A stretch of 64,000 bases of DNA from Myroides marinus (GTDB lineage Bacteria; Bacteroidota; Bacteroidia; Flavobacteriales; Flavobacteriaceae), in contig NZ_FNYS01000006.1 in the NCBI RefSeq assembly GCF_900109075.1, positions 95,136 through 159,135 of the forward strand, given 5' to 3'. Of this stretch, positions 21,663-33,605 are shown piece after piece (positions within the stretch are counted from its first letter, which is position 1; every line of letters begins with the position of its first letter). Both the position numbers and the translations under genes were made by a program. The notes under the pieces are model-generated. The model was not told the origin of the DNA. It saw only the letters and a list, made by a program, of their open reading frames with translations, and made no database searches.

Positions 21663-22043
21663 CTTTATTTTTAAGAAGAATAAGAGCTGTAATTAGTCAT
21701 TAGTTATTAAAAACTTTAGTTTGTCTGTTCTATGTTTAAAAGTTAGATAAACTAAAAATAGAGTTTTATTTATATTTTATTCAAAAAAGATTAGTAAAAA
21801 GCAAAGTTAAGCAAAACGATTAAATCCGTTGCTATACAATGTTTTATAAAGAAGTAGTCTTTATTTGGAACTCGGTGTCTGATAGGTTTTGGGCTTGAAA
21901 TGACAAAGTTAAGTTACTAATTCGTTACCGATTAATAGAGGTTTCTTATTAGTTTAAACGGTTATATTTCAGTGTTTTGCACTTATTTTTATATTTCCTT
22001 GTAACTCAATGTAAATTAATTTTAAACATTAAACATTTGAGTT
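21663..22043. other. Gap at the left end of the integrative element
   Basis: About 380 bases. It holds CCGTTGCTATACAATG near 21829, related to the spacer at 8720, and the candidate attL. The last 110 bases lead into the integrase start and should include its promoter. Confidence 0.45.
21914..21932. other. Candidate attL of the integrative element
   Basis: TTACTAATTCGTTACCGAT is repeated in the same direction at 53440-53459 as TTACTAAATCGTTACCTGAT (one substitution and one extra base). The copies lie 112 bases before the integrase and 289 bases beyond the rteC start, as expected for the two ends of such an element. Confidence 0.5.
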
Positions 22044-23294
22044 ATGACGCAGACAAAAAAATCAACGTTCAAACTGCTTTTCTACTTGAAAAAGAACGAA
22101 CTGAAAAAAAATGGTAATGCTCCGATTATGGCACGTATTACCATTGACGGAACACCTAAAACTTTCGGGACAAAGTTAGAAATTGACCCAAGCAATTGGG
22201 ATCTAAAATATGGAAGAGTTGAGGGCAAAAGCGCAACAGCTTTAAATATTAATAAAAAGTTGGATAACATACGTGGGCGTATTGACAAAATTTATGAAGA
22301 TATGCTGAAACACGAGGGCTTTGCTACTTCCCAAAAAGTAAAGCTCTCATTCTTGGGTGTTGGTGTAATGGATGATGCAATTCTAAAAGTCTTTAACGAT
22401 AAAAATGAGGAATTTAAAAAATTGGTTGACAAGGAAGAACGTTCACAAAGCACCTACAACAAGTACATCACGGTTTATAATCATCTTACCGCTTTTATCA
22501 AAGAACGCTATCATCGTGATGATATGGCCTTTCGGGAATTGACTGGAGATTTTATTAGGGAATTTGATTTTTATCTTCGGTACGATTTACAGTCTACACA
22601 TAATACGGTTTGGGTTTACACGATGCCTGTGCTAAGTCTGGTGGAATTGGCTATTAAAAAAAGTTTGATACGTGATAATCCGTTTCAAGATTATGAAATT
22701 AATATGGAAGAAACCGACAGGGGTTATATTCTTAAAGAAGATGTAGAAAAACTGATGATGTGTGTACCGCCCCACCCACGGTATGAGCTTGTGAAAGATC
22801 TTTTTATTTTCAGTTGTTTTACCGGACTTGCTTATGCGGATATTAAAAAACTGACAAGGAACAATATTCAGTCTTTCTTCGATGGCCATCAATGGATCAT
22901 CAGCCGAAGAAAAAAATCAGATATTGCTTCTAATGTTCGGTTAATGGAAATCCCAAAACGTATCATAGAAAAATACCTCGGTAGCACTCGTAATGAGTTT
23001 ATCTTTCCAGTTCCAACCAATGTAACCTGCAATACTCACATTGGCAAATTAATTGAAAAAGCTGAAATTATTACAGAACAAAAAGTAACTTTTCACACCG
23101 CAAGACACACATTTGGAACGATGTTTTTGACCGAAGGCGTACCTCTTGAAAGCCTTAGCAAAATGATGGGACATAAAAACATTTCAACTACACAGATTTA
23201 TGCTAAAATTACCAGCCAAAAGATTAGTAAGGATATGGATTTGGTAGCTCCTAAATTTAAGGAGATTGAAGAAGCGTTTTTACAGGTTATATAG
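22044..23294 (+). CDS. Tyrosine site-specific integrase
   Basis: 416 residues: an N-terminal arm-binding domain (STFKLLFYLKKNELKKNGNA), a SAM-like core-binding domain (about 115-210) and a catalytic domain. The catalytic boxes show FHTARHTFGT (His and Arg), GHKNISTTQIYAKI (His and the nucleophile Tyr) and a Lys-rich beta hairpin. The first conserved Arg, expected in CFTGLRxxD, is replaced: the sequence reads CFTGLAYADIKKL. I recall the same loss in IntDOT of the Bacteroides element CTnDOT. It should integrate and excise the element. A terminator follows. Confidence 0.93.
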   Translation: MTQTKKSTFKLLFYLKKNELKKNGNAPIMARITIDGTPKTFGTKLEIDPSNWDLKYGRVEGKSATALNINKKLDNIRGRIDKIYEDMLKHEGFATSQKVKLSFLGVGVMDDAILKVFNDKNEEFKKLVDKEERSQSTYNKYITVYNHLTAFIKERYHRDDMAFRELTGDFIREFDFYLRYDLQSTHNTVWVYTMPVLSLVELAIKKSLIRDNPFQDYEINMEETDRGYILKEDVEKLMMCVPPHPRYELVKDLFIFSCFTGLAYADIKKLTRNNIQSFFDGHQWIISRRKKSDIASNVRLMEIPKRIIEKYLGSTRNEFIFPVPTNVTCNTHIGKLIEKAEIITEQKVTFHTARHTFGTMFLTEGVPLESLSKMMGHKNISTTQIYAKITSQKISKDMDLVAPKFKEIEEAFLQVI

Positions 23295-23943: not shown

Positions 23944-24321
23944 ATGAACATCACAGGAAGACTGACAAGGGATGCGGAAGTACGCACAACGTCACAGGAC
24001 AAACAAGTAGTAAACTTTTCAGTAGCGACCAACGACAGCTACCGTAACAAGCAGGGCGAACGCATAGAGCAAACCACCTATTTCGACTGCTCCTATTGGA
24101 TAAGCCCGAATGTAGCCAAGCTACTTACAAAAGGCACTTTGGTAGAACTATCGGGACGAGTAAGTACAAGAGCGTGGACAGGTAATGATGGAGAGCCAAG
24201 AGCAGGATTGAATTTCCATACCTCACAAATCAAATTGCACGGCGGTGGCAAAAAATCGGAAACGGCACAAGCTACCACAAGCACAAACAATAACAAGGCA
24301 GAAGACGACCTCCCATTTTAA
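23944..24321 (+). CDS. ssb: Single-stranded DNA-binding protein (element-borne)
   Basis: 125 residues with an OB fold from residue 1 to about 100 (MNITGRLTRDAEVRTT, VNFSVATNDSYRNKQGER) and an acidic tail ending DDLPF, the usual SSB interaction tip. It binds single-stranded DNA during transfer or replication of the element. It begins the run of element genes on the plus strand and has a slightly higher G+C than the chromosome around the element. Confidence 0.95.
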   Translation: MNITGRLTRDAEVRTTSQDKQVVNFSVATNDSYRNKQGERIEQTTYFDCSYWISPNVAKLLTKGTLVELSGRVSTRAWTGNDGEPRAGLNFHTSQIKLHGGGKKSETAQATTSTNNNKAEDDLPF

Positions 24322-24365: not shown

Positions 24366-25439
24366 ATGGCACATAATATCAATTTCAACGAGAGAACAGG
24401 ACGTTATTCATTTTTCAGCGTTCAGCAAAAAGCGTGGCACGGTTTAGGGCAAATCGTGGAGCAATACCCAACAAGCGAGGAAGCTATCAAACACGCAGGA
24501 TTAGATTACGAAGTCGTAAAATCCCCACTTTTTACCAAAGGTTCGGGCATTATCGAAACCGCACAGGGCATAGAGATAGGCAGTAGCGAATTGGAAGTAC
24601 CTAACTATTTTGCTAACATTCGCACCGATAACAATGCAGTATTAGGCGTAGTCGGTAAGGATTACCACATTGTGCAAAACCGTGAAGCCTTTAATTTCTT
24701 TGATGCTATCGTAGGTGGTGGCGAGGGTATTCTCTACGAAACCGCAGGAGCATTGGGTAAAGGAGAACGCATTTTTATTACTGCAAAATTACCCGACTAT
24801 ATCCGTGTAGGCAATGGCGATGACGTTACGGAAAAGTACATCTTCCTAACCACTTCACACGATGGCAGTGGAAGTATAACAGCCGCATTTACTCCTATCC
24901 GTATCGTTTGTCAAAATACCCTTAACGCTTCGTTACGTAGTATGACCAATGTAGTCCGTATCAAACATACTTCGGGAGCAAAAGGGCGTATCGAGAACGC
25001 TCACAAGATTATGGGATTGGCGAACACATTGAGCAACCAATTAGAGGGCATTTTCAACGAGTGGACAAAGGTAAAGGTAACAGACCGAGAGGTAAGAAAG
25101 CTAATCCAATTGGCACTTTGCCCGAATAAGGAAACCCTTGATTTGATTAAAAAAGGTGCGGAAGATGAAGTTTCAACCGTGTTTAAAAATGTCGTTGATG
25201 ACGCTTTTGGCTATGCAATGATGAGCGACACACAGCAAATGGACACGACAAAAGGCACATTGTTCGGAGCATACAATGCGGTTACAGGCTACTATCAGAA
25301 TGTACGGAATTACAGGGATGACGAAGCCAAGTTGCAGAGTATTGTATTAGGCGGAACGGCACAAGCCAAATCACAGAAAGCATTTGACCTATGTACTGCC
25401 TTTGCATTAGACGGTGCGGAAATCCTAACACTTAATTAA
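24366..25439 (+). CDS. DUF932 domain protein (plasmid/phage-type, TIGR03299-like)
   Basis: 357 residues. Typical family text is QQKAWHGLGQIVEQYPTSEE at the start, GVVGKDYHIVQNREAFNFFD in the middle and TPIRIVCQNTLNASL later. The family is common on plasmids and integrative elements of Bacteroidetes; its job is not known with certainty. It follows ssb by 44 bases and belongs to the same run of genes. No membrane segment is seen. Confidence 0.9.
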   Translation: MAHNINFNERTGRYSFFSVQQKAWHGLGQIVEQYPTSEEAIKHAGLDYEVVKSPLFTKGSGIIETAQGIEIGSSELEVPNYFANIRTDNNAVLGVVGKDYHIVQNREAFNFFDAIVGGGEGILYETAGALGKGERIFITAKLPDYIRVGNGDDVTEKYIFLTTSHDGSGSITAAFTPIRIVCQNTLNASLRSMTNVVRIKHTSGAKGRIENAHKIMGLANTLSNQLEGIFNEWTKVKVTDREVRKLIQLALCPNKETLDLIKKGAEDEVSTVFKNVVDDAFGYAMMSDTQQMDTTKGTLFGAYNAVTGYYQNVRNYRDDEAKLQSIVLGGTAQAKSQKAFDLCTAFALDGAEILTLN

Positions 25440-25447
25440 ATAACCAC

Positions 25448-25475
25448 AGGCTACCGCCTTAATCGGTGGTAGCCT
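25448..25475 (+). other. Hairpin after the DUF932 gene
   Basis: AGGCTACCGCC, a 6-base loop and GGTGGTAGCCT. There is no T tract, so it is more likely an RNA-processing or attenuation hairpin than a classic terminator. Confidence 0.5.
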
Positions 25476-25492
25476 ACTATAAAACAACAATA

Positions 25493-25663
25493 ATGAAAGT
25501 AGAAACATTTATAGCAACCATAAAGCACAACAACGGAACAGTAAACCTCAAAGTGGTATCACTAAATGGTAAGCAGGGAGCAATACAGCAGATAACAACC
25601 GTAGAGGATTGCCCCGAATGTGCCATTACGGAAATAGTAAAGATTGATAACGACACAAATTAG
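25493..25663 (+). CDS. Unknown small element protein
   Basis: 56 residues from the ATG at 25493 (MKVETFIATIKHNNGTVNLK). A short strand-rich start is followed by a CPEC pair (DCPECAIT). The start lies 18 bases after the hairpin. No family is recognised; it is part of the small-gene run between the DUF932 gene and the PRTRC genes. Confidence 0.6.
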   Translation: MKVETFIATIKHNNGTVNLKVVSLNGKQGAIQQITTVEDCPECAITEIVKIDNDTN

Positions 25664-25669
25664 TGAGAA

Positions 25670-25876
25670 ATGAAGACAACATCAAAGACCGAAGCGAAGC
25701 AGTTGGCAAAAGCATACAGCCATAATAAAGAGTACAAAGACGTGGCTTTATACATCATCTACTGTAACCGAACAGAACTATACTATGTAGATACTAACAG
25801 CCTAATAAGGCTTTGGGAACAACTAATCGGCTACTATGTAAACGGAGTTTATACTGCCGAAAAATCACATTCATAA
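25670..25876 (+). CDS. Unknown small element protein
   Basis: 68 residues, beginning MKTTSKTEAKQLAKAYSHNK. It is mostly helical and rich in Tyr, with no membrane segment. It begins six bases after the preceding small gene, so they are cotranscribed. Function unknown. Confidence 0.6.
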   Translation: MKTTSKTEAKQLAKAYSHNKEYKDVALYIIYCNRTELYYVDTNSLIRLWEQLIGYYVNGVYTAEKSHS

Positions 25877-25892
25877 CCTTTAAGCGAGTATA

Positions 25893-26232
25893 ATGAAAAA
25901 CGAAAGCAATAGCCACAAAGTTTGTCCGCCACGAAGTACCCGAACTGGAAACGCTGAAATCTTCAAAGGTCTATCAGTTAAGGGAAAAACTGAACAAAGG
26001 CGAGAAATTGAGCCGAGCCGAAAAAAATTGGATTGCGGAAGCAGTAAACCGCAATGCGTTTTTCAGAAAAGCCGTACCCCTTATGGGTTATCGCTTTGGT
26101 TTTGAGGATATTTTAAAAGCCTATGTAGTGAAGCAGTACGACAGTTGGCAGGAATACAATGCCCCCGATAAAACGAGCCTACGGAGTTTCATTTATGGCA
26201 GGATTGAACAAATAGCGGAAATAAGCAAATAA
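25893..26232 (+). pseudogene. Small element gene with a one-base insertion near its start
   Basis: The conserved protein reads TKAIATKFVRHEVPELETLK and goes on through MGYRFGFEDILKAY to YGRIEQIAEISK. The ATG at 25893 is not in this frame: after it comes a run of five A. With four A the frame reads MKTKAIATKF and runs to 26232 (112 residues). As given, the ATG yields only a meaningless 70-residue product, and the native frame could restart only at an internal codon. It is either a real frameshift or a sequencing error. Function unknown. Confidence 0.6.
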
Positions 26233-26255
26233 CATTTAAAAGCGAGTACAATAAA

Positions 26256-26465
26256 ATGCACGTAACAGATTTAAACGGTTGCCCCATTGAGATAACAGAC
26301 CTTGATGAAGCTATCCAAATAACGAAAGAAAACAAGGAATACAGGCACGAGGACAAAAGTTTTTCCGAGTTCGACAAAAGGCAAAACGCCTATTGGACGG
26401 ATATGTACGAAAAACTAAAAGCAATCAAAAAACAAGTAACAACAATTAAAATTTTAGAGCGATGA
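26256..26465 (+). CDS. Unknown small element protein upstream of PRTRC E
   Basis: 69 residues, beginning MHVTDLNGCPIEITDLDEAI. It is acidic first, basic at the end, with no membrane segment. The stop overlaps the start of the PRTRC E gene by four bases (ATGA), so translation is coupled, which suggests a related role. No family is recognised. Confidence 0.65.
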   Translation: MHVTDLNGCPIEITDLDEAIQITKENKEYRHEDKSFSEFDKRQNAYWTDMYEKLKAIKKQVTTIKILER

Positions 26466-27073
26466 ACACAAATTTTTTCAAACAAGTACAGCAGTTGGAT
26501 TTTACAGGCAATTTACAACTGACGATAACCAAAGGAGCAGAAAGCAATCTAATTGTATCGGTATTGCTCCATAACGAACAATGCGGAGATAGTGCCAAAA
26601 ACCTCATTCCCCCATTGACATTTAACGCCACCGCACAGGAGTTTGACGAGGGATTTTTTGAGCAAATAACCACACCTGTACAAAAGGTATCGGGCTTAAT
26701 GGTAGATATGGAAAAGTTCCAAAAGCAATTGGACGAAGCCAAAGCACAATCGGCAATCGAGAAAGCAAAAGCCGAAAAAGAGAAAAAGGAACAGGAAGCC
26801 AAAGACAAGAAGTTTAAACAGGCTATGGATAAGGTGGACGAGTTGGAGAAAGAGGGTAAGTTCCGTGAAGCGTGGATAAAAGTACCCGACATAGCGGAGT
26901 ACCCCGAAAAAGCGGACGAACTACGCAAACGCAAAACATCATTATCAGACAAGTTTGCAACACCGAGCCTTTTCGGAGCAACGGAAGAAACAGCAACCGA
27001 ACCGCCACAGGTGGCAGAAGCTACTGCCGATTGCCCGACAGACACAGCGGACGAAGAAGAAAACGAGTATTAA
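26462..27073 (+). CDS. PRTRC system protein E
   Basis: 203 residues. The start FFKQVQQLDFTGNLQLTITK and the following strand-rich ~80 residues match the N-terminal domain of PRTRC protein E. Residues about 85-145 form a long charged coiled coil (KAEKEKKEQEAKDKKFKQ), and the tail is acidic. PRTRC genes form a conserved cluster on plasmids and integrative elements, and several of its members belong to ubiquitin-like, E1, E2 and JAB fold families; the biology is not established. It is the first gene of the cluster here. Confidence 0.85.
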   Translation: MNTNFFKQVQQLDFTGNLQLTITKGAESNLIVSVLLHNEQCGDSAKNLIPPLTFNATAQEFDEGFFEQITTPVQKVSGLMVDMEKFQKQLDEAKAQSAIEKAKAEKEKKEQEAKDKKFKQAMDKVDELEKEGKFREAWIKVPDIAEYPEKADELRKRKTSLSDKFATPSLFGATEETATEPPQVAEATADCPTDTADEEENEY

Positions 27074-27091
27074 CCATTAAAAACGAGCATT

Positions 27092-27310
27092 ATGTTATTA
27101 GCAACGCATTTAGAGAGAGTTTTTGTACTCAAAGATAAAGGACAGGACATCAGACTGACCGACCCAGAGCCACGTTGGAGCGTGGAAGCGGTAATGAATT
27201 ATTACGCCAATATGTACCCCATTCTGACGACTGCAAAAGCATCTGCACCGCAGATAAAAGACGATGCAGTAGAGTACAGATTTGAGAGCGTAATGGGTAC
27301 GAAAGGTTAA
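27092..27310 (+). CDS. PRTRC system protein C (ubiquitin-like)
   Basis: 72 residues. Its pattern (THLERVFVLKDKG, then LTDPEPRWSVEAVMNYYANM and the end RFESVMGTKG) matches PRTRC protein C. From memory, this family is grouped with prokaryotic ubiquitin-like folds, and the C-terminal Gly fits that idea. It would be the small modifier or adaptor of the cluster. It lies 18 bases after E and 18 before the next gene. Confidence 0.85.
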   Translation: MLLATHLERVFVLKDKGQDIRLTDPEPRWSVEAVMNYYANMYPILTTAKASAPQIKDDAVEYRFESVMGTKG

Positions 27311-27328
27311 ACCAAAAATTGTAAAACG

Positions 27329-28495
27329 ATGAATTATGCACAAACATATCATATCGGGAACAATCAGCATACCCGAACAGAACAGGCAACGGCAATTGCA
27401 CCGACAGTTGGGCGAATTCGCAAATTGGCTACAAAGACCAAAGGACGCAAACCAAGTGCAGAAAGACAAGCAAAAATCCGTACCAATAGCAATGCTACCA
27501 ATGGTATTCTAAAGTGTACGTTTCAGCCTAAGCTGAAAACAGCACATTCCGTACAGGCTTGTCAGAAAACGGAAAGGGATTTTTATCAGTCCCTTTCCAA
27601 ACTTGCCGAGCATTACAGCATTGAGCCGATGACGACACAAAAGGATTATGGCTTTCCCTACAATATGGTATTAAGTATGTGGGATATAAATACTAAACTG
27701 AAACGTACCCACAGGAATTGGGATAGTTTACGTTTGTTGCAGGACAGTAAGAAAACCATTTTACAAAGCGAGGAAACATATAACGTAGGTACGACTTTGT
27801 TTCATATTCCTATTGTGCCACTCTTTCAAATGCTCAAAGACCCGAAACGTAAAAAGAACGCCCAGTTACTCATATCGGTTTGCAGTTATCTGTATCATAT
27901 TGTCCGAATACCTTATTACAGACAGGAAGACAGTTATCTGTATTGGCTGTGTGAAACGCATAAAGATTGGATTGAGTATGACGAAACGGACGAAACCGAA
28001 ACGTATAAAGGCGAGTTGCGACAGGCAGAGGTAATTGGCGACAGGATAGAACAAAAGCTCTATAACCATATCAACCTAACATTATTTGAACAGCGTTTGA
28101 GCCGATTTAAAAGCCGTGATACATTCGACAGGGAGTGTTGGCAAGTGGCTTGTAATGCGTTTGCTCTTTACACGGAATACCCGAAAGCGACCATTTTCAG
28201 AAATGCACCATTTTCCGAAGAAGACCCCTATAATGATGATTGCGAAAATGAAGCAATCGGAATGGAAAAGTATATCTCTTTTATTGCCGATACAAAAGGG
28301 TTGCTTTATAACAGCATTGTAGAAAATATCAATAGCGAGTTTAACGAGTGTGGAGTATTGGAAGAACCGAGTATTTCCATACCCTTTAATGGTAGTGATA
28401 CATCGGGCGAGAACCTCGATTTTGAGAACCGAATGTTTGACCTATTGGAAGATTTATATATGTTATTGGAAAACTATAAAACGACAGAAAAATGA
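27329..28495 (+). CDS. Unknown protein in the PRTRC F position
   Basis: 388 residues, soluble. The N-terminal ~60 residues are basic and low in structure (RKLATKTKGRKPSAERQAK); the rest is helical, with a Trp/Tyr-rich middle (YYRQEDSYLYWLCETHKDW) and an acidic C-terminus. In other PRTRC clusters the gene between C and B is called F. I cannot see clear sequence similarity to F, so this is assigned by position only. Its stop overlaps the B start by four bases. Confidence 0.6.
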   Translation: MNYAQTYHIGNNQHTRTEQATAIAPTVGRIRKLATKTKGRKPSAERQAKIRTNSNATNGILKCTFQPKLKTAHSVQACQKTERDFYQSLSKLAEHYSIEPMTTQKDYGFPYNMVLSMWDINTKLKRTHRNWDSLRLLQDSKKTILQSEETYNVGTTLFHIPIVPLFQMLKDPKRKKNAQLLISVCSYLYHIVRIPYYRQEDSYLYWLCETHKDWIEYDETDETETYKGELRQAEVIGDRIEQKLYNHINLTLFEQRLSRFKSRDTFDRECWQVACNAFALYTEYPKATIFRNAPFSEEDPYNDDCENEAIGMEKYISFIADTKGLLYNSIVENINSEFNECGVLEEPSISIPFNGSDTSGENLDFENRMFDLLEDLYMLLENYKTTEK

Positions 28496-29205
28496 ACGAT
28501 ATAACCGAAAAATTTGGCACATTGTACTATCCAAAATCCGCTTTGGTTTTCTATGAAACCATAGGAACGGAAACCGATATGTACGTGGAGCATTTTGATA
28601 TGGACAGCAACGGAACTCCAGTAAATGCCCACCCATTGACCGTTAAGGAAGCCGAAATATTGGCAAAGGCTTTACAAACCGATGAGGAAAGAAGCAGAGT
28701 ATTTTTAAAACCAAAAGGTATTTTGCCGACCAACATTCTGCATATCAATCCGAGCGAAAAAGGTACGGTATTGTGGTACACCAAAGCACAGAAAAGGCAG
28801 TTGTATTTTGTAAGTGGTTTGGGCATACCCAACGGAAAGGCACAAGTACCGCCAATGCTTTGGGTAGCGGACAAAAGCAGTCTTACAGTTTTTGCCCTTA
28901 CCGCCAACCGCAGACCCACCGAGAAAACGCCTTTGCATTATGCACCTTTTTTCAATATCTACGAAAAGGGCAACGTATGTATGGGAACGGTAAGCATAGG
29001 CATCAAAAATTCGTCTTCGGTAGAGGAATTTATACAGGCTTGGGAAGACTACTTTTTTAACAGCTATTTCAGTCATTCTTTGTGTGCAGACTTGACCAAA
29101 ACAAACATTGTAAACCTATGGAAAGACCTTATCGGTACAGATAAACCCTTTCCAATAGAGGTACTAAAGAAGAACAACAAAACACTAAAAAATCTATTGC
29201 GATGA
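28492..29205 (+). CDS. PRTRC system protein B (E2-like)
   Basis: 237 residues matching PRTRC protein B: GTLYYPKSALVFYE at the start, LPTNILHINPSEKGTVLWYT in the middle and the later HYAPFFNIYEKGNVCMGTVS. From memory this family is placed with prokaryotic E2-like (ubiquitin-conjugating) folds. A Cys lies in NVCMGTVS, but I cannot say that it is catalytic. It overlaps both neighbours by four bases, so translation of the run is coupled. Confidence 0.85.
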   Translation: MNDITEKFGTLYYPKSALVFYETIGTETDMYVEHFDMDSNGTPVNAHPLTVKEAEILAKALQTDEERSRVFLKPKGILPTNILHINPSEKGTVLWYTKAQKRQLYFVSGLGIPNGKAQVPPMLWVADKSSLTVFALTANRRPTEKTPLHYAPFFNIYEKGNVCMGTVSIGIKNSSSVEEFIQAWEDYFFNSYFSHSLCADLTKTNIVNLWKDLIGTDKPFPIEVLKKNNKTLKNLLR

Positions 29206-29579
29206 AAACAGAGAAAGAAAAAATACATTTTACGGATAATTATCTGCTCAATCCAACCAATCCGATTTCGGTAAACCTTATCGGAGCAGGTGGCACAGGC
29301 TCAAAGGTATTGACCGCTTTAATGGAAATAAACGAGAGTTTGATAGCATTGGGACACGCAGGGTTGCAAGTGCGTTTGTGGGACGATGATATTATCACGA
29401 GTGCCAATTTAGGCAGACAGCGTTTTTTTGAATGTGAAACAGGATTGTACAAATCCGTTGCATTGATAAACCGTATCAATCGTTGTATCGGTACGAATTG
29501 GAAAGCCGAGTGGATAAAACACACCAAAGTGACCCCTCTTCGCCAGATTAAACTGCCCCCCTCTGCCAGAGCAAAATGA
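29202..29579 (+). pseudogene. PRTRC system ThiF-family (E1-like) protein, 3' end lost
   Basis: The native sequence ends at about 29529, where an IS21 element begins; the last 16 residues come from the IS end. What remains is the nucleotide-binding start of a ThiF/E1-like domain: SVNLIGAGGTGSKVLTALME with the G-x-G-G-x-G loop, and LWDDDIITSANLGRQRFFE, the adenylation-site Asp and Arg region. The rest of the domain, which would hold the catalytic Cys, is gone. The cluster therefore cannot carry out E1-type activation from this gene. Confidence 0.85.
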
Positions 29580-29719
29580 TCCCCTTCCGCCAAACGAAAG
29601 TGATCCCCCTTCGCCAGGCCAATTGACCCCCTGAAAAGAACATAAAGTAGTTTGCCGACCGGTTTCCCAGGACGAGGTTTTTGTTTAGATTTTTTGCTGA
29701 ACAAAAATCCTTGATTACG

Positions 29720-31264
29720 ATGTCCAATAAACCGATCAAAATGAATAAACTACGACAGATTATCCGTCTTTACTGCCAGGGAACCGGCACAAAGACCATC
29801 AACGGGATGGTGGGTACTTCCCGTACCACCATCAAAAAGTATTTACGCATATGGCATGAGCTGGGCATCACCCACGAAGTATTCAATGCTAAGAGCGATA
29901 GTGAACTTTCCGTGCTTTTCAATACCCCGGCTGCCAAAACGATCAACAGCCCCCGAATGCAGGAACTGGAGGTATTGCTGCCGGACTACTGTAAAAGGCT
30001 TAAAAAGAAAGGGGTAACCCGTGAATCACTTCATCTGGAATACCTGTCCAAACACCCTCAGGGTTATGGACGTTCCCGCTTTAACAATGCCATTCATACT
30101 TATCTTCAACTTTCTAAGCCGGTCATGCACCTTGATCATAAGGCAGGCGACAAGATCTATATCGACTTCGCCGGAAGCAAACTTCAGCTTCATCCTGCCT
30201 CTGGTCCGGAACGTGATGCGGAGGTATTTGTAGCGATATTGGGCTGCAGCCAGCTTACGTATGTGGAGGCAGTAGAAAGCCAGCGCAAGGAAGATCTGAT
30301 TAAGGCCTGTGAGAACGCCCTGCATTATTTTGGAGGTGTTCCAGCAGCCATTGTTCCCGATAACCTGCGTTCTGCAGTGACTAAAGGTAGCAAATACGAA
30401 GCCGTGCTCAATGATGAGTTTGCGGCTTTTGCCGAGTATTATGCCGTTACGGTAGTCCCTGCAAGAGCATATAAGCCCCGTGACAAGTCTTTAGTGGAAG
30501 GTGCGGTTAAACTCATCTATCGGAGCATCTACCAGCGGCTGGAAGGCCGCAGGTTCAGTGATCTGGAATCGCTGAACGCTGCGATACGGTCCGCATTGGA
30601 GATCCACAATAATAAGCCTTTTTCAGGACGGAGTTACTCGCGAAGGGAACAGTTCGAGGAGGTGGAACGGGAAGCACTGGGGGCACTCAACCCGATTCGC
30701 TACGAGGTTCACAGATAAGTCATGGTAACAGTGATGAAGAATGGATATGTGCGTTTGGGTGAGGATATTCACTACTACAGCGTTCCTTACACTTATATCG
30801 GTAAGAAAGTAAAAGTGCTTTATACCTCCGGTATGGTCCAGATCTATTACCACTACACGCAGATTGCAGCCCATAAACGCAGCCGGACCAAATATCATTA
30901 CACCACCGACAAAGAACACCTGGCCTCACAGCATCGTTTTCTCACCGAATGGACACCAGAAAAGTTCATCCAGGAAGCCGAGCAGATCCATGAAGATGTC
31001 GCCAAATACATTTCCCAGGTCCTGGAGCGTAAAGCCTATCCTGAGCAGGCTTATAAATCCTGCTCAGGGATCTTAAGCTTTGCCAGACGTGTTGGACCAG
31101 AGCGCTTGGCGAATGCCTGCCGCTGGGCAGAAAACCTGGGCCAGTACAATTATCCGGTCATTGAAGAGATCCTTAGAAAGCAACTGGATCAGCTAACCCC
31201 TGAGGATGAACCGGCGGCTATACCATCTCATGATAACATCAGGGGGAAAGAATATTATCAGTAA
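29720..31264 (+). pseudogene. istA: IS21 transposase IstA, broken by an in-frame stop
   Basis: About 514 codons in one frame, interrupted by a TAA at 30716-30718. The part before it has an N-terminal helix-turn-helix (TKTINGMVGTSRTTIKKYL) and the DDE core: Asp in DKIYIDFAGSKL, Asp in AIVPDNLRSAV and Glu in VEGAVKLIYRSIYQ. After the stop the frame goes on with VMVTVMKNGYVRLGE to the natural end. AAA to TAA is the simplest explanation, so IstA would lack its C-terminal third. The ATG at 29720 is the likely start. Confidence 0.85.
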
Positions 31265-31287
31265 CAACCTATAAACCCATAAAAAAT

Positions 31288-32034
31288 ATGAACAACGAAA
31301 CATTAGAGAAGATGCGTCAGCTTCGCCTGTACGGCATGTATGATGCCTTCAAAACCAATCTGGAGACTTCAGTGAAAGAATCCCTTACCGCAGACCAGTT
31401 TGTTGCATTGCTGGTGGCCAGCGAATGGGACGACCGGCGGAACCGCTCTGTGCAAAGAGCCATTAGGGGTGCAAGTTTCCGTTACAATGCCTCTTTAGAA
31501 CAAATAGACTACTCTTTTGAACGTGGTCTGGATAAGAACCAGGTCCACAGGCTTGCGGGACTAGAGTTTATCAAAGAACACAAAGATGTGTTTATTACCG
31601 GTTCCACTGGAACCGGTAAAAGTTATCTGGCAACCGCTTTAGGTTACCATGCCTGCCAGAATGGTTACAAAGTAATGTACGTGAATACGGCCAAACTGAT
31701 GGGCCAGCTAAAGCTGGCCAAGGCAAAAGGGACCATGCTGGCAGAATTGAAGCGCATAGAACGCCTGGATATGCTTATACTCGACGACTTCGGCCTGCAG
31801 CCCTTCGATCCTCAATCCAGGCTTGCATTGCTTGATATCATCGAAGACAGGCACCAGAAGCGTTCTACGGTGATTACTTCTCAGATCCCGGTCAAGGAAT
31901 GGTACGACATCATTGGTGAAAAGACAGTCGCTGACGCGGTGCTTGACCGCATTGTTCACCACTCATTAAGGGTCGAATTGTTTGGAGAATCACTAAGGAG
32001 AAAAAAAACTAATCCGGAAAATGTATTTTTGTAG
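31288..32034 (+). CDS. istB: IS21 ATP-binding helper protein IstB
   Basis: 248 residues of the DnaC/IstB type. The N-terminal helices (ETLEKMRQLRLYGMYDAF) are followed by an AAA+ core with Walker A in GSTGTGKSYLATAL and Walker B in LDMLILDDFGLQPF. IstB assists IstA in strand transfer by loading on target DNA. The frame is intact, 23 bases after istA, but since istA is broken the copy is probably not self-mobile. Confidence 0.93.
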   Translation: MNNETLEKMRQLRLYGMYDAFKTNLETSVKESLTADQFVALLVASEWDDRRNRSVQRAIRGASFRYNASLEQIDYSFERGLDKNQVHRLAGLEFIKEHKDVFITGSTGTGKSYLATALGYHACQNGYKVMYVNTAKLMGQLKLAKAKGTMLAELKRIERLDMLILDDFGLQPFDPQSRLALLDIIEDRHQKRSTVITSQIPVKEWYDIIGEKTVADAVLDRIVHHSLRVELFGESLRRKKTNPENVFL

Positions 32035-32155
32035 AAATAACAGTTGTTAAACCGGACAAAAAATATCCGTTCAAGGAACCGATCTGTATAACAACTTTTT
32101 GTTCTTTTCAAACCTCAACTCTGAGGGGACAGTTTGCTGTGGCGAACGGGGGTCA

Positions 32156-32541
32156 GTTTCATTGGTATATCCAAAAAAGACATTACTTCGATAAAAAACG
32201 ACTCAAATTCACTTCGTATTTTTGAAGGATTCTTTGATTTTATTTCCTTTAAAAATGTGGAAGATTATCTGGAGAAACAACCTTCAGATTACATCATTTT
32301 AAATTCAGTTTTGATGATAGAAAGAATTAAAAATGAATTGGGTAATTATCATAATATTGAACTTTATTTTGATAACGACGAAGCCGGAAATCGCGCGGTT
32401 GAAATAATCAAAAATGAAAATCAAAACGCAAAAGATTGTTGGGCTTTATATTCAAGTTTTAAAGATTTAAATGACTGGCTGATTCATGAAAATCCTTCAA
32501 ATGAAATTAAAATTTATTATAAATCTGCATTTAAAAGATGA
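32156..32541 (+). pseudogene. TOPRIM-domain gene (primase-like), 5' end lost at the IS
   Basis: The native part begins directly after the IS21 end; the in-frame codons before it belong to the IS. It reads SLRIFEGFFDFISFK, then IILNSVLMIERI and LYFDNDEAGNRAVE, with the TOPRIM signs E in FEGFFD and D-x-D in LYFDNDEAG. Such domains form the second half of the CHC2 zinc-finger/TOPRIM proteins on Bacteroidetes mobile elements; the zinc finger would lie in the lost part. It overlaps the next gene by four bases. Confidence 0.8.
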
Positions 32542-33176
32542 AAGATTTTAAAACTTATGAAGTAGACCTATTTGAAAAGATTTTTGAATTAAATTCAAAA
32601 AATAAAATTGGTGCAACTACGATTACAGTGTTTACATTCATTTTGTACAAATGCGAAGATCCTCAAAAAGAAATTGTTTTGTCTGACTACGAAATGGCAA
32701 GAGAACTTGGGCTTTCCAGACAAACCGTAATTACGGCGAAAAATAAACTAAAACTTTTAGGACTTTTAAATTATCAAAGAAATCCTGGTTTTCCGAATCG
32801 TTTTATATTAAGTGGAAATGAATTCCCTAACGAAAAACTTAAAATAAATGAAATAAAAGAGATTCCGATTAAAAATTTAAATCGAATTCCAGAGCCAAAA
32901 ATTATTGATACTAATTCGTTTTCCAAATTCCCAACACTTAAACAGTTTATGGATTTTGCCAAAACGTTGAAAGATTATTCAGAAAAATTAGATGACTTGT
33001 TGATTAAGAAATTTCATCAATGGGAAAATTCTGACTGGAAAAATTCGTTAGGAAAACCTATCTTAAATTGGCAGACAGTTCTTGAGAAAAATTTGATTAT
33101 GCTGGAGATTTCGCTACCTAAAGAAAACCAAACTCATTTCAAAATCCCAAATATTAAAAGACCTAAACTGTACTAA
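32538..33176 (+). CDS. Winged-helix protein, probable replication or transfer regulator
   Basis: 212 residues. Residues about 20-85 form a winged helix (SDYEMARELGLSRQTVITAK with the wing RNPGFPNRFIL); the rest is charged and helical. The arrangement after a TOPRIM gene resembles replication modules of Bacteroidetes plasmids and integrative elements. It might be an initiator or a regulator; the sequence does not decide. The A+T content is much higher than in the PRTRC genes, so this block has a different origin. Confidence 0.7.
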   Translation: MKDFKTYEVDLFEKIFELNSKNKIGATTITVFTFILYKCEDPQKEIVLSDYEMARELGLSRQTVITAKNKLKLLGLLNYQRNPGFPNRFILSGNEFPNEKLKINEIKEIPIKNLNRIPEPKIIDTNSFSKFPTLKQFMDFAKTLKDYSEKLDDLLIKKFHQWENSDWKNSLGKPILNWQTVLEKNLIMLEISLPKENQTHFKIPNIKRPKLY

Positions 33177-33605
33177 AATCTTTTATACTAACCAAGCTAA
33201 AATATGGTAGTCCAAATAAAATTTCATTACACTGAAAAAAGTAATAGCAAGATATGTCTTTGTGGATACAAAATTTACATTTTATACCACTAAAGACTTT
33301 CTTGCCTTTTCTGCGAAAAGGGTAAAAAAACTTCGGAACTCGTTTTATAATTTTTAAGTCGCTCTGTTTTAAAGTGAAAATCGAATACATTTTTCGCCTC
33401 TTTTTATAACAAATTATTGCTGAAAAAAAATAACTACAGTGAATTAAATAAAAATAAAAAACTTGAAATAATTTCGATTTTGTTCAAATTCTGAAGCCGT
33501 ATTTTTGAACACGTCATAATAATTTCCAAATATTAGCAAAATAAAAATGAACGTTCATTCTTTTTTTTTGTATATTTGCACTATCAAACTAGATAAAAGA
33601 AGAAA
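33177..33605. other. Gap upstream of the TetR-regulated genes
   Basis: About 430 AT-rich bases. The first 370 show no gene; the last 60 contain the operator and promoter of the DoxX/TetR unit (separate entry). Confidence 0.5.
33546..33578 (+). promoter_or_regulatory. Palindromic operator plus promoter of the doxX-tetR unit
   Basis: AATGAACGTTCATT (33546-33559) is a perfect 14-bp palindrome. TATATTTG (33571-33578) fits the -7 consensus, so the palindrome covers the -33 position, where a repressor would block RNA polymerase. An almost identical site occurs before the Ohr gene. Confidence 0.75.

Follow-up and report, generated by a model that had tools for sequence, protein, structure and literature searches.

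A reduced PRTRC operon with a ThiF gene cut short at an IS21 element in Myroides marinus: the probable remnant of a ubiquitin-like module

Introduction

PRTRC, which we take to stand for ParB-Related, ThiF-Related Cassette, is a gene cassette of proteobacterial plasmids covered by the models TIGR03735, TIGR03736, TIGR03737, TIGR03738, TIGR03741 and TIGR03742. This work deals with a module of the same gene order (E, C, an F-position gene, B and ThiF) from Myroides marinus, located in a stretch of 64,000 nucleotides of contig NZ_FNYS01000006.1 (henceforth, the window), in which E, C, B and part of ThiF match these models, and the ThiF gene is cut short at an insertion sequence (IS) of the IS21 family. 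In comparison with the plasmid cassettes, the Bacteroidota modules show neither the A gene, encoding a JAB protein, nor a ParB gene, and mostly carry ssb and DUF932 genes upstream instead. We consider, with a probability of about 0.82, that the window contains the left-hand portion of an integrative and conjugative element (ICE) of Bacteroidota with a reduced PRTRC operon, E-C-F-B-ThiF in intact copies and here with an IS21-truncated ThiF, that the intact operon would form a relay of E1-like, E2-like and ubiquitin-like proteins, and that the copy in the window has been inactivated recently.

Similar sets of components have been described in other systems. Passages of Iyer, Burroughs and Aravind (2006; PMC1779556) present an operon type 6d composed of a small glycine-ended ubiquitin-like protein, a rapidly diverging alpha-helical protein, an E2-like protein with a Cys and a downstream His, and an E1-like protein, with Bacteroides listed in the row for this type. 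As far as those passages go, the four components are the same as in the Bacteroidota module, and Cys163 and His195 of B fit the pattern of a Cys and a downstream His. The same passages state that E1-like proteins without a fused JAB are always accompanied by a JAB gene immediately next to theirs, whereas no JAB was found beside the Bacteroidota modules. The ISG15-like antiphage system BilABCD also comprises ubiquitin-like, E2, JAB and E1 components and, according to a passage of a review (PMC11354881), the JAB protein BilC exposes the glycine of BilA; in contrast, the Bacteroidota module has no JAB, and its C is a single ubiquitin-like domain whose glycine is exposed from the start. The E1/E2 components of the type II cyclic-oligonucleotide-based antiphage signalling system (CBASS), Cap2/Cap3, share the E1-like fold, and the ThiF from the closest copy found of the window module, that of locus L167, yielded a weak match to the PADLOC E1-E2 models (best E 0.00045). 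However, in type II CBASS the E1 and E2 are one protein (a 563-residue match in locus L097) tied to a cyclase, while the Bacteroidota module has separate genes for them and a dedicated ubiquitin-like protein. PADLOC gave no match for E, C, F or B of the window at E 0.001.

PRTRC itself appears, in passages of the literature, as an annotation in a table of gene expression and in an account of what plasmids encode that counts it with partition systems. No experimental study of PRTRC was found in the literature searched, whose coverage leaves out most subscription papers and all bioRxiv preprints. The main text of PMC11541004, on anti-defence in leading regions, does not contain the terms ubiquitin, ThiF, DUF932, Bacteroid or single-stranded DNA-binding.

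The Module and Its Truncated ThiF Gene

The initial annotation of this DNA, made from the sequence alone, had recognised five genes that overlap or lie within 20 bases of each other, and had assigned C, B and ThiF to ubiquitin-like, E2-like and E1-like families. Both points were confirmed. The five frames are open at the positions given (Table 1; that of the ThiF part runs on into the IS as far as 29579), with 18 bases between E and C, another 18 between C and F, and overlaps of 4 bases at both the F/B and the B/ThiF junctions. The matches of E, C and B to PF19556, PF14454 and PF14460 all exceed the gathering scores; E and C also score over the cut-offs of their NCBIfam models, and B reaches 130.4 bits with TIGR03737, slightly below the cut-off of 131.45. 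In turn, the start of the region at 26256 had to be corrected, since 26256-26465 does not belong to E and is a separate open reading frame (ORF), named here S0, with relatives of its own. Because E, C and B match their models and neither A nor ParB was found, the Bacteroidota module is classed, from sequence, as a reduced PRTRC variant, of which the window copy is a broken instance.

The F-position gene has the place and size of PRTRC F, and its product gave no match to Pfam or NCBIfam (E 0.1), PHROG (0.01) or PADLOC (0.001). To our knowledge, F is the most divergent of the PRTRC families. In the case of TIGR03742, the model for protein F, the F-position proteins of the Bacteroidota plasmids L163 and L164 fail, while those of L162 and L161 pass. 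The structure model of the window protein is mostly alpha-helical, at low confidence (predicted local distance difference test, pLDDT, 43.5).

The residues on which a conjugation relay would depend are strongly conserved. The last residue of C is a glycine in all 88 aligned sequences and, among the 106 distinct C sequences of at least 65 residues, 105 end in GTKG and one in GVKG; the glycine end is missing from the broken, 56-residue C of L222. The window C, with its Prok_Ub match and GTKG end, thus has the features of a ubiquitin-like protein with a putatively exposed C-terminal glycine. In B, Cys163 is found in 129/129 and His195 in 125/129 distinct sequences, whereas Cys127, Asp129, Arg134 and Cys213 of ThiF are invariant in the 126 distinct full-length sequences. 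All four of these ThiF residues are missing from the window fragment, which keeps the GxGGTG loop. The fragment matches TIGR03736 at 2e-28 with 99.4 bits (cut-off 144.75) and PF00899 at 7.4e-06 with 25.7 bits (cut-off 28.1), and there is no complete PRTRC ThiF in the window.

The C-terminal part of ThiF had been proposed to be lost to the IS21 element. It is true that the gene is cut short there, yet a simple insertion looks unlikely: the homology to the intact ThiF of the closest copy found stops at 29509, 20 bases short of the IS end at 29530, and no target-site duplication is visible at the IS ends, so that the junction looks like the result of a rearrangement or deletion. Searched against the genome assembly, the IS matches nothing but itself. 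Its istA (named by reading) has an in-frame stop at 30716-30718, and given this stop, the copy may be unable to transpose by itself.

The closest copy of the module among the best 80 of 206 matches, which supplied the additional named loci, is L167, from Chryseobacterium oranimense DSM 19055. There, the order is int, ssb, DUF932, small genes, E, C, F, B and ThiF (269 residues), followed by helix-turn-helix genes, TraQ, TraO, the gene for a DUF4138 protein, and TraM. Window positions 24530-27361 (2.8 kb) are identical to L167 except for two length differences of one base each, and E and C show no difference. By contrast, ssb, F, B and ThiF diverge far more, the ratio of nonsynonymous to synonymous substitution rates (dN/dS) being 0.12-0.13 for F, B and the ThiF part. 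This points to a mosaic relation between both loci, with recent exchange. Given its near-identity, the shared segment must be very young, and the truncation can be recent.

ThiF Retention in Related Modules

PRTRC modules are common on the mobile DNA of the genus to which the window belongs: C was found in 59 of its 299 genomes and B in 8 of the 299 genomes of the family sample, the M. marinus genome being included in both counts. The order ssb, DUF932 (missing in some), E, C, F, B, ThiF is nearly constant. The 170 Bacteroidota loci with C overlap, as some genomes are counted both as G stretches and as named loci, and they were reduced to 136 distinct modules by counting copies with the same C region once; the module of the window stands outside this number. 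Six of the modules had too little sequence on the 3' side and were omitted; the other 130 extend at least 3.2 kb beyond C.

ThiF is full length (at least 250 residues) in 128 of these 130 modules, partial in L222, where E and C are broken as well, and absent in L152. A further case, the split ThiF of L189, was hidden by the de-duplication. Breaks in the other genes of the module are similarly infrequent, and affect F in L143 and L219, B in L183, and C in L148 and L222. Both facts indicate that, as judged from these modules, loss of the E1 is rare and not special. It must be considered that the F profile fails on the F-position gene of L024, L026, L028 and L030, where the interval between C and B measures 1.0-1.1 kb.

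Searches for E1, JAB and ParB Genes

It had also been suggested that the remaining set might work with an E1 encoded elsewhere. The draft genome of M. marinus lends no support to this: a full-length PRTRC ThiF query matched the window fragment alone, and TIGR03736 recovered, besides the fragment, two other E1-like genes of housekeeping type (39.0 and 17.8 bits), whose best models are ThiF/MoeB and TcdA, below the cut-offs of those models. As for the JAB, the A protein was not found in this genome with TIGR03735, and PF14464 produced two sub-threshold matches (E 0.03 and 0.05). Neither a second PRTRC ThiF nor an A gene was thus recovered from the genome.

Beyond M. marinus, TIGR03735 found A in none of 11 whole Bacteroidota genomes and in two of four plasmid records, and a profile for A built in this work was negative in all 170 Bacteroidota loci with C. 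The absence of A from the window is thus not part of the damage. A ParB profile, made from 10 plasmid PRTRC ParB proteins, was likewise negative in the 170 Bacteroidota loci (limited stretches) and positive in 13 of 20 plasmid stretches from outside Bacteroidota. For both genes, the negative results cover ThiF copies of which 161/166 have at least 2.5 kb of downstream sequence. Seven of the 20 other plasmid stretches (L165, L166, L255, L261, L266, L267 and L268) show no A; among them are those of Shewanella (whole record searched), Photobacterium, Pseudoalteromonas, Pseudomonas paraeruginosa and Marinobacter. Seven of the 20 show no ParB, including some that have A. From these records, the A-less state is not peculiar to Bacteroidota and is shared by several gammaproteobacterial cassettes, and A may not be strictly defining for PRTRC.

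The plasmid cassettes provided a clue to the role of A. Of 22 plasmid loci, 20 had an identifiable C (L267 and L270 were omitted, as none was identified). Among the 12 with A, C extends past the position of the terminal glycine in eight, ends at the glycine in three and ends in GTKA in one, whereas none of the eight cassettes in which A was not seen has a tailed C (Fisher p 0.0047, uncorrected for relatedness). For L163 and L166 the whole record was searched for A; for L164, L165, L255, L261, L266 and L268 the search covered the fetched stretch, which carries a risk, since L161 has its A outside the fetched stretch. The pattern suggests that A could mature C by trimming its tail and that a tail-less C would make A dispensable. 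The idea leaves unexplained the four tail-less cassettes that do have A, for which A must have another role or be kept without need. The association between tails and A directly predicts what PRTRC A would do.

A Proposed Pathway and Its Alternatives

The following scheme can be proposed for the intact operon. ThiF would adenylate the ubiquitin-like C at its C-terminal glycine and transfer it to B, the E2-like protein, where C would be bound to the invariant cysteine through a thioester. B would then link C to target proteins, and E and F would probably take part as target-recognition or scaffold partners. C would be translated with its reactive end already exposed and would need no JAB protease for its maturation. 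In the window, the IS21-associated rearrangement would have taken about 60% of ThiF, including both conserved cysteines, together with whatever lay to its right and, with the adenylating enzyme cut, the conjugation of C should stop. As ThiF is truncated and the draft genome gave no match to a cognate E1, we read the module as, most likely, a remnant whose inactivation is recent.

In a wider, and tentative, proposal, to which we give somewhat less than even odds, Bacteroidota ICEs would carry a reduced ubiquitin-like conjugation pathway (C, B and ThiF, plus E and F) that dispenses with a JAB because the GTKG end is pre-exposed. Some gammaproteobacterial plasmids would share this A-less state, and A, where present, would be a maturation protease removing C tails. 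The tag of Bacteroidota would then be irreversible within the operon and, given the place of the module beside ssb, might act on proteins of the recipient cell during ICE establishment. If it is true that the reduced form conjugates without a JAB, it would offer a five-protein pathway for testing bacterial ubiquitin-like tagging, with natural E1-less copies (those of the window and L152) as controls.

Several observations weigh against this picture of a conjugation relay lost by truncation. No chemistry has been reported for any PRTRC system in the literature searched. The structure model of B is poor (pLDDT 62.5), it gave no Foldseek match at E 0.001 or better and a best VIA-align Z of 3.9, and no E2 fold appeared among the matches listed, so that the E2 assignment rests on sequence profiles. 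The assembly consists of 54 contigs, and a PRTRC E1 could lie in an assembly gap. Moreover, the frames of E, C, F and B in the window are open and under purifying selection, as expected if they are still used or if the damage is recent. Finally, L152 (genome G539; L152:5990-7280) keeps open frames for E, C, F and B without ThiF, and its genome holds no other match to PRTRC ThiF. The sequence 3' of B is unrelated there and a decayed IstB remnant lies nearby, so the loss of ThiF may be old. The pairwise dN/dS of L152 against five sisters is 0.04-0.17, with synonymous sites largely saturated and one value undefined, and would mostly reflect the period before ThiF was lost.

The last two observations are the basis for supposing that the remaining E-C-F-B set works without an E1, for instance, through non-covalent binding of C to B, E or F. 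We regard this as quite unlikely, since 128 of 130 modules keep ThiF, the other genes are also broken at similarly low rates and, E and C of the window being the same as in an intact element, their open frames may merely reflect how recent the damage is. It is even harder to accept that a housekeeping E1 activates C in trans. E1-like enzymes have the adenylation fold in common, and the M. marinus genome encodes both a ThiF/MoeB-like and a TcdA-like protein; however, the weak scores of the two with TIGR03736 and the end of C, GTKG instead of the GG typical of ThiS and MoaD, make such a cross-reaction very improbable, and nearly every module examined supplies its own ThiF.

A different objection concerns the intact operon itself, which might employ these folds for something other than conjugation, such as sulfur carriage or partition. 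ThiF-fold enzymes serve sulfur carriers too, and this view takes further strength from the literature searched, which yielded no biochemistry for PRTRC, and from the B model, without an E2 fold among the matches listed. What nevertheless renders it unlikely is that the terminal glycine of the ubiquitin-like C is constant and that the operon encodes a member of the E2 family whose cysteine is invariant and whose downstream histidine is conserved. A passage of one paper places PRTRC among plasmid partition systems, but partition is improbable in Bacteroidota, as no ParB-family gene was found in the 170 loci. As to the junction between ThiF and IS21, the draft state of the genome and the lack of a target duplication could be taken to mean an assembly error. 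We judge this very unlikely: with a single match for the IS in the assembly, a false join through repeats is less plausible, a collapsed repeat being still conceivable. The reading of the window module as a reduced PRTRC operon probably inactivated by the loss of most of ThiF is the one we prefer.

Searches against solved structures contributed little to these questions. No match was obtained for B, and those of C, to three designed ankyrin proteins and one ribosomal protein, were put down to chance.

The Element and Its Surroundings

The earlier placement of the module on an integrative element is borne out by the integrase, the left end and the counterpart in L167, where tra genes follow the module. 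About 270 bp 5' of the integrase gene are conserved in 58 fetched loci (71.9-98.5% identity) and the match starts at 21764-21784 in 56 of them, which marks the left end of the element. In the window, no tra genes adjoin the module and, with the integrase and the module present here and the tra genes lying after the module in L167, the window would hold the left side of an ICE of this kind, from which the transfer module is missing. In other parts of the M. marinus genome there are two TraM genes, with about 40% identity to that of L167. An empty site or attachment repeats were also considered, but the left border and the right flank share only three 10-base AT-rich words, and no relative among the matches listed had both host flanks at one place.

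Table 1. Features of the PRTRC module of the window and its surroundings (window positions)
Feature	Position	Strand	Remarks
Element left end, conserved DNA 5' of integrase	21769-22043 (start approximate)		Similar DNA in 58 loci
Tyrosine integrase of the element	22044-23294	+	PF17293, PF13102, PF00589
ssb, putative (named from sequence similarity and place)	23944-24321	+	Homologous to the same-place gene in related elements
DUF932/TIGR03299 gene	24366-25439	+	PF06067 4.5e-69; TIGR03299 4.8e-66
X gene as in related elements, but with the frame lost from the start	25893-26232	+	112-residue ORF intact in L015 and L167
S0, small conserved ORF before E, 69 residues	26256-26465	+	73% identity to L015:10064-10285; present in other modules
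PRTRC E	26462-27073	+	PF19556 PRTRC_E 2.9e-75; TIGR03741 8.5e-13, over cut-off
PRTRC C, ubiquitin-like family, C-terminal G-T-K-G	27092-27310	+	PF14454 Prok_Ub 3.9e-26; TIGR03738 3.4e-14, over cut-off
F-position protein	27329-28495	+	Conserved between C and B in related modules
PRTRC B, E2-like family, invariant Cys163	28492-29205	+	PF14460 Prok-E2_D 4.8e-37; TIGR03737 6.4e-38
PRTRC ThiF 5' part, ~102 of ~269 residues	29202-29509	+	TIGR03736 profile positions 6-100 of 245; alignment to L167
IS21 element	29530-32155	+	Terminal inverted repeats; ends read from sequence
istB (named by reading)	31288-32034	+	ORF in IS21
Toprim/primase-like gene, C-terminal part, of another element	32156-32541	+	37-42% identity to ORFs in L206, L222, L240; weak dnaG match, E 0.0012
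Replication-protein-like gene of another element	32538-33176	+	29-30% identity to ORFs in L206, L222, L240; weak PHROG matches, best 0.00058
Non-coding motif, 103 bp, perhaps right end of second element	33244-33346		82% identity to L206:14157-14259, 80% L219, 76% L222

The sequence to the right of the IS was considered as a continuation of the same element, a possibility that was rejected, as its genes resemble those of L206/L240-type elements, in a different order. In L206, the copy of the 103-bp motif stands before genes that look chromosomal (by reading). This second type of element carries PRTRC too, in L206, L222 and L240. On these similarities, we interpret the region as composite, with two elements that meet at the IS.

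As regards the X gene, its loss of frame sits in the 2.8 kb otherwise almost identical to L167 and may be an assembly error.

In the locus of G404 (L097:742-5983), a type II CBASS operon (phospholipase effector, cyclase, E1-E2 and JAB, by PADLOC) adjoins the PRTRC ThiF in the opposite direction; the sole PF14464 match over cut-off in the 11 Bacteroidota genomes, beside this ThiF, is the JAB of that operon and was discarded as a candidate for A. The space 3' of ThiF looks like a cargo site. In another element (L015:548-5497), DnaE-like, DinB/ImuB-like and LexA/UmuD-like genes (named by reading) are found 3' of ThiF.

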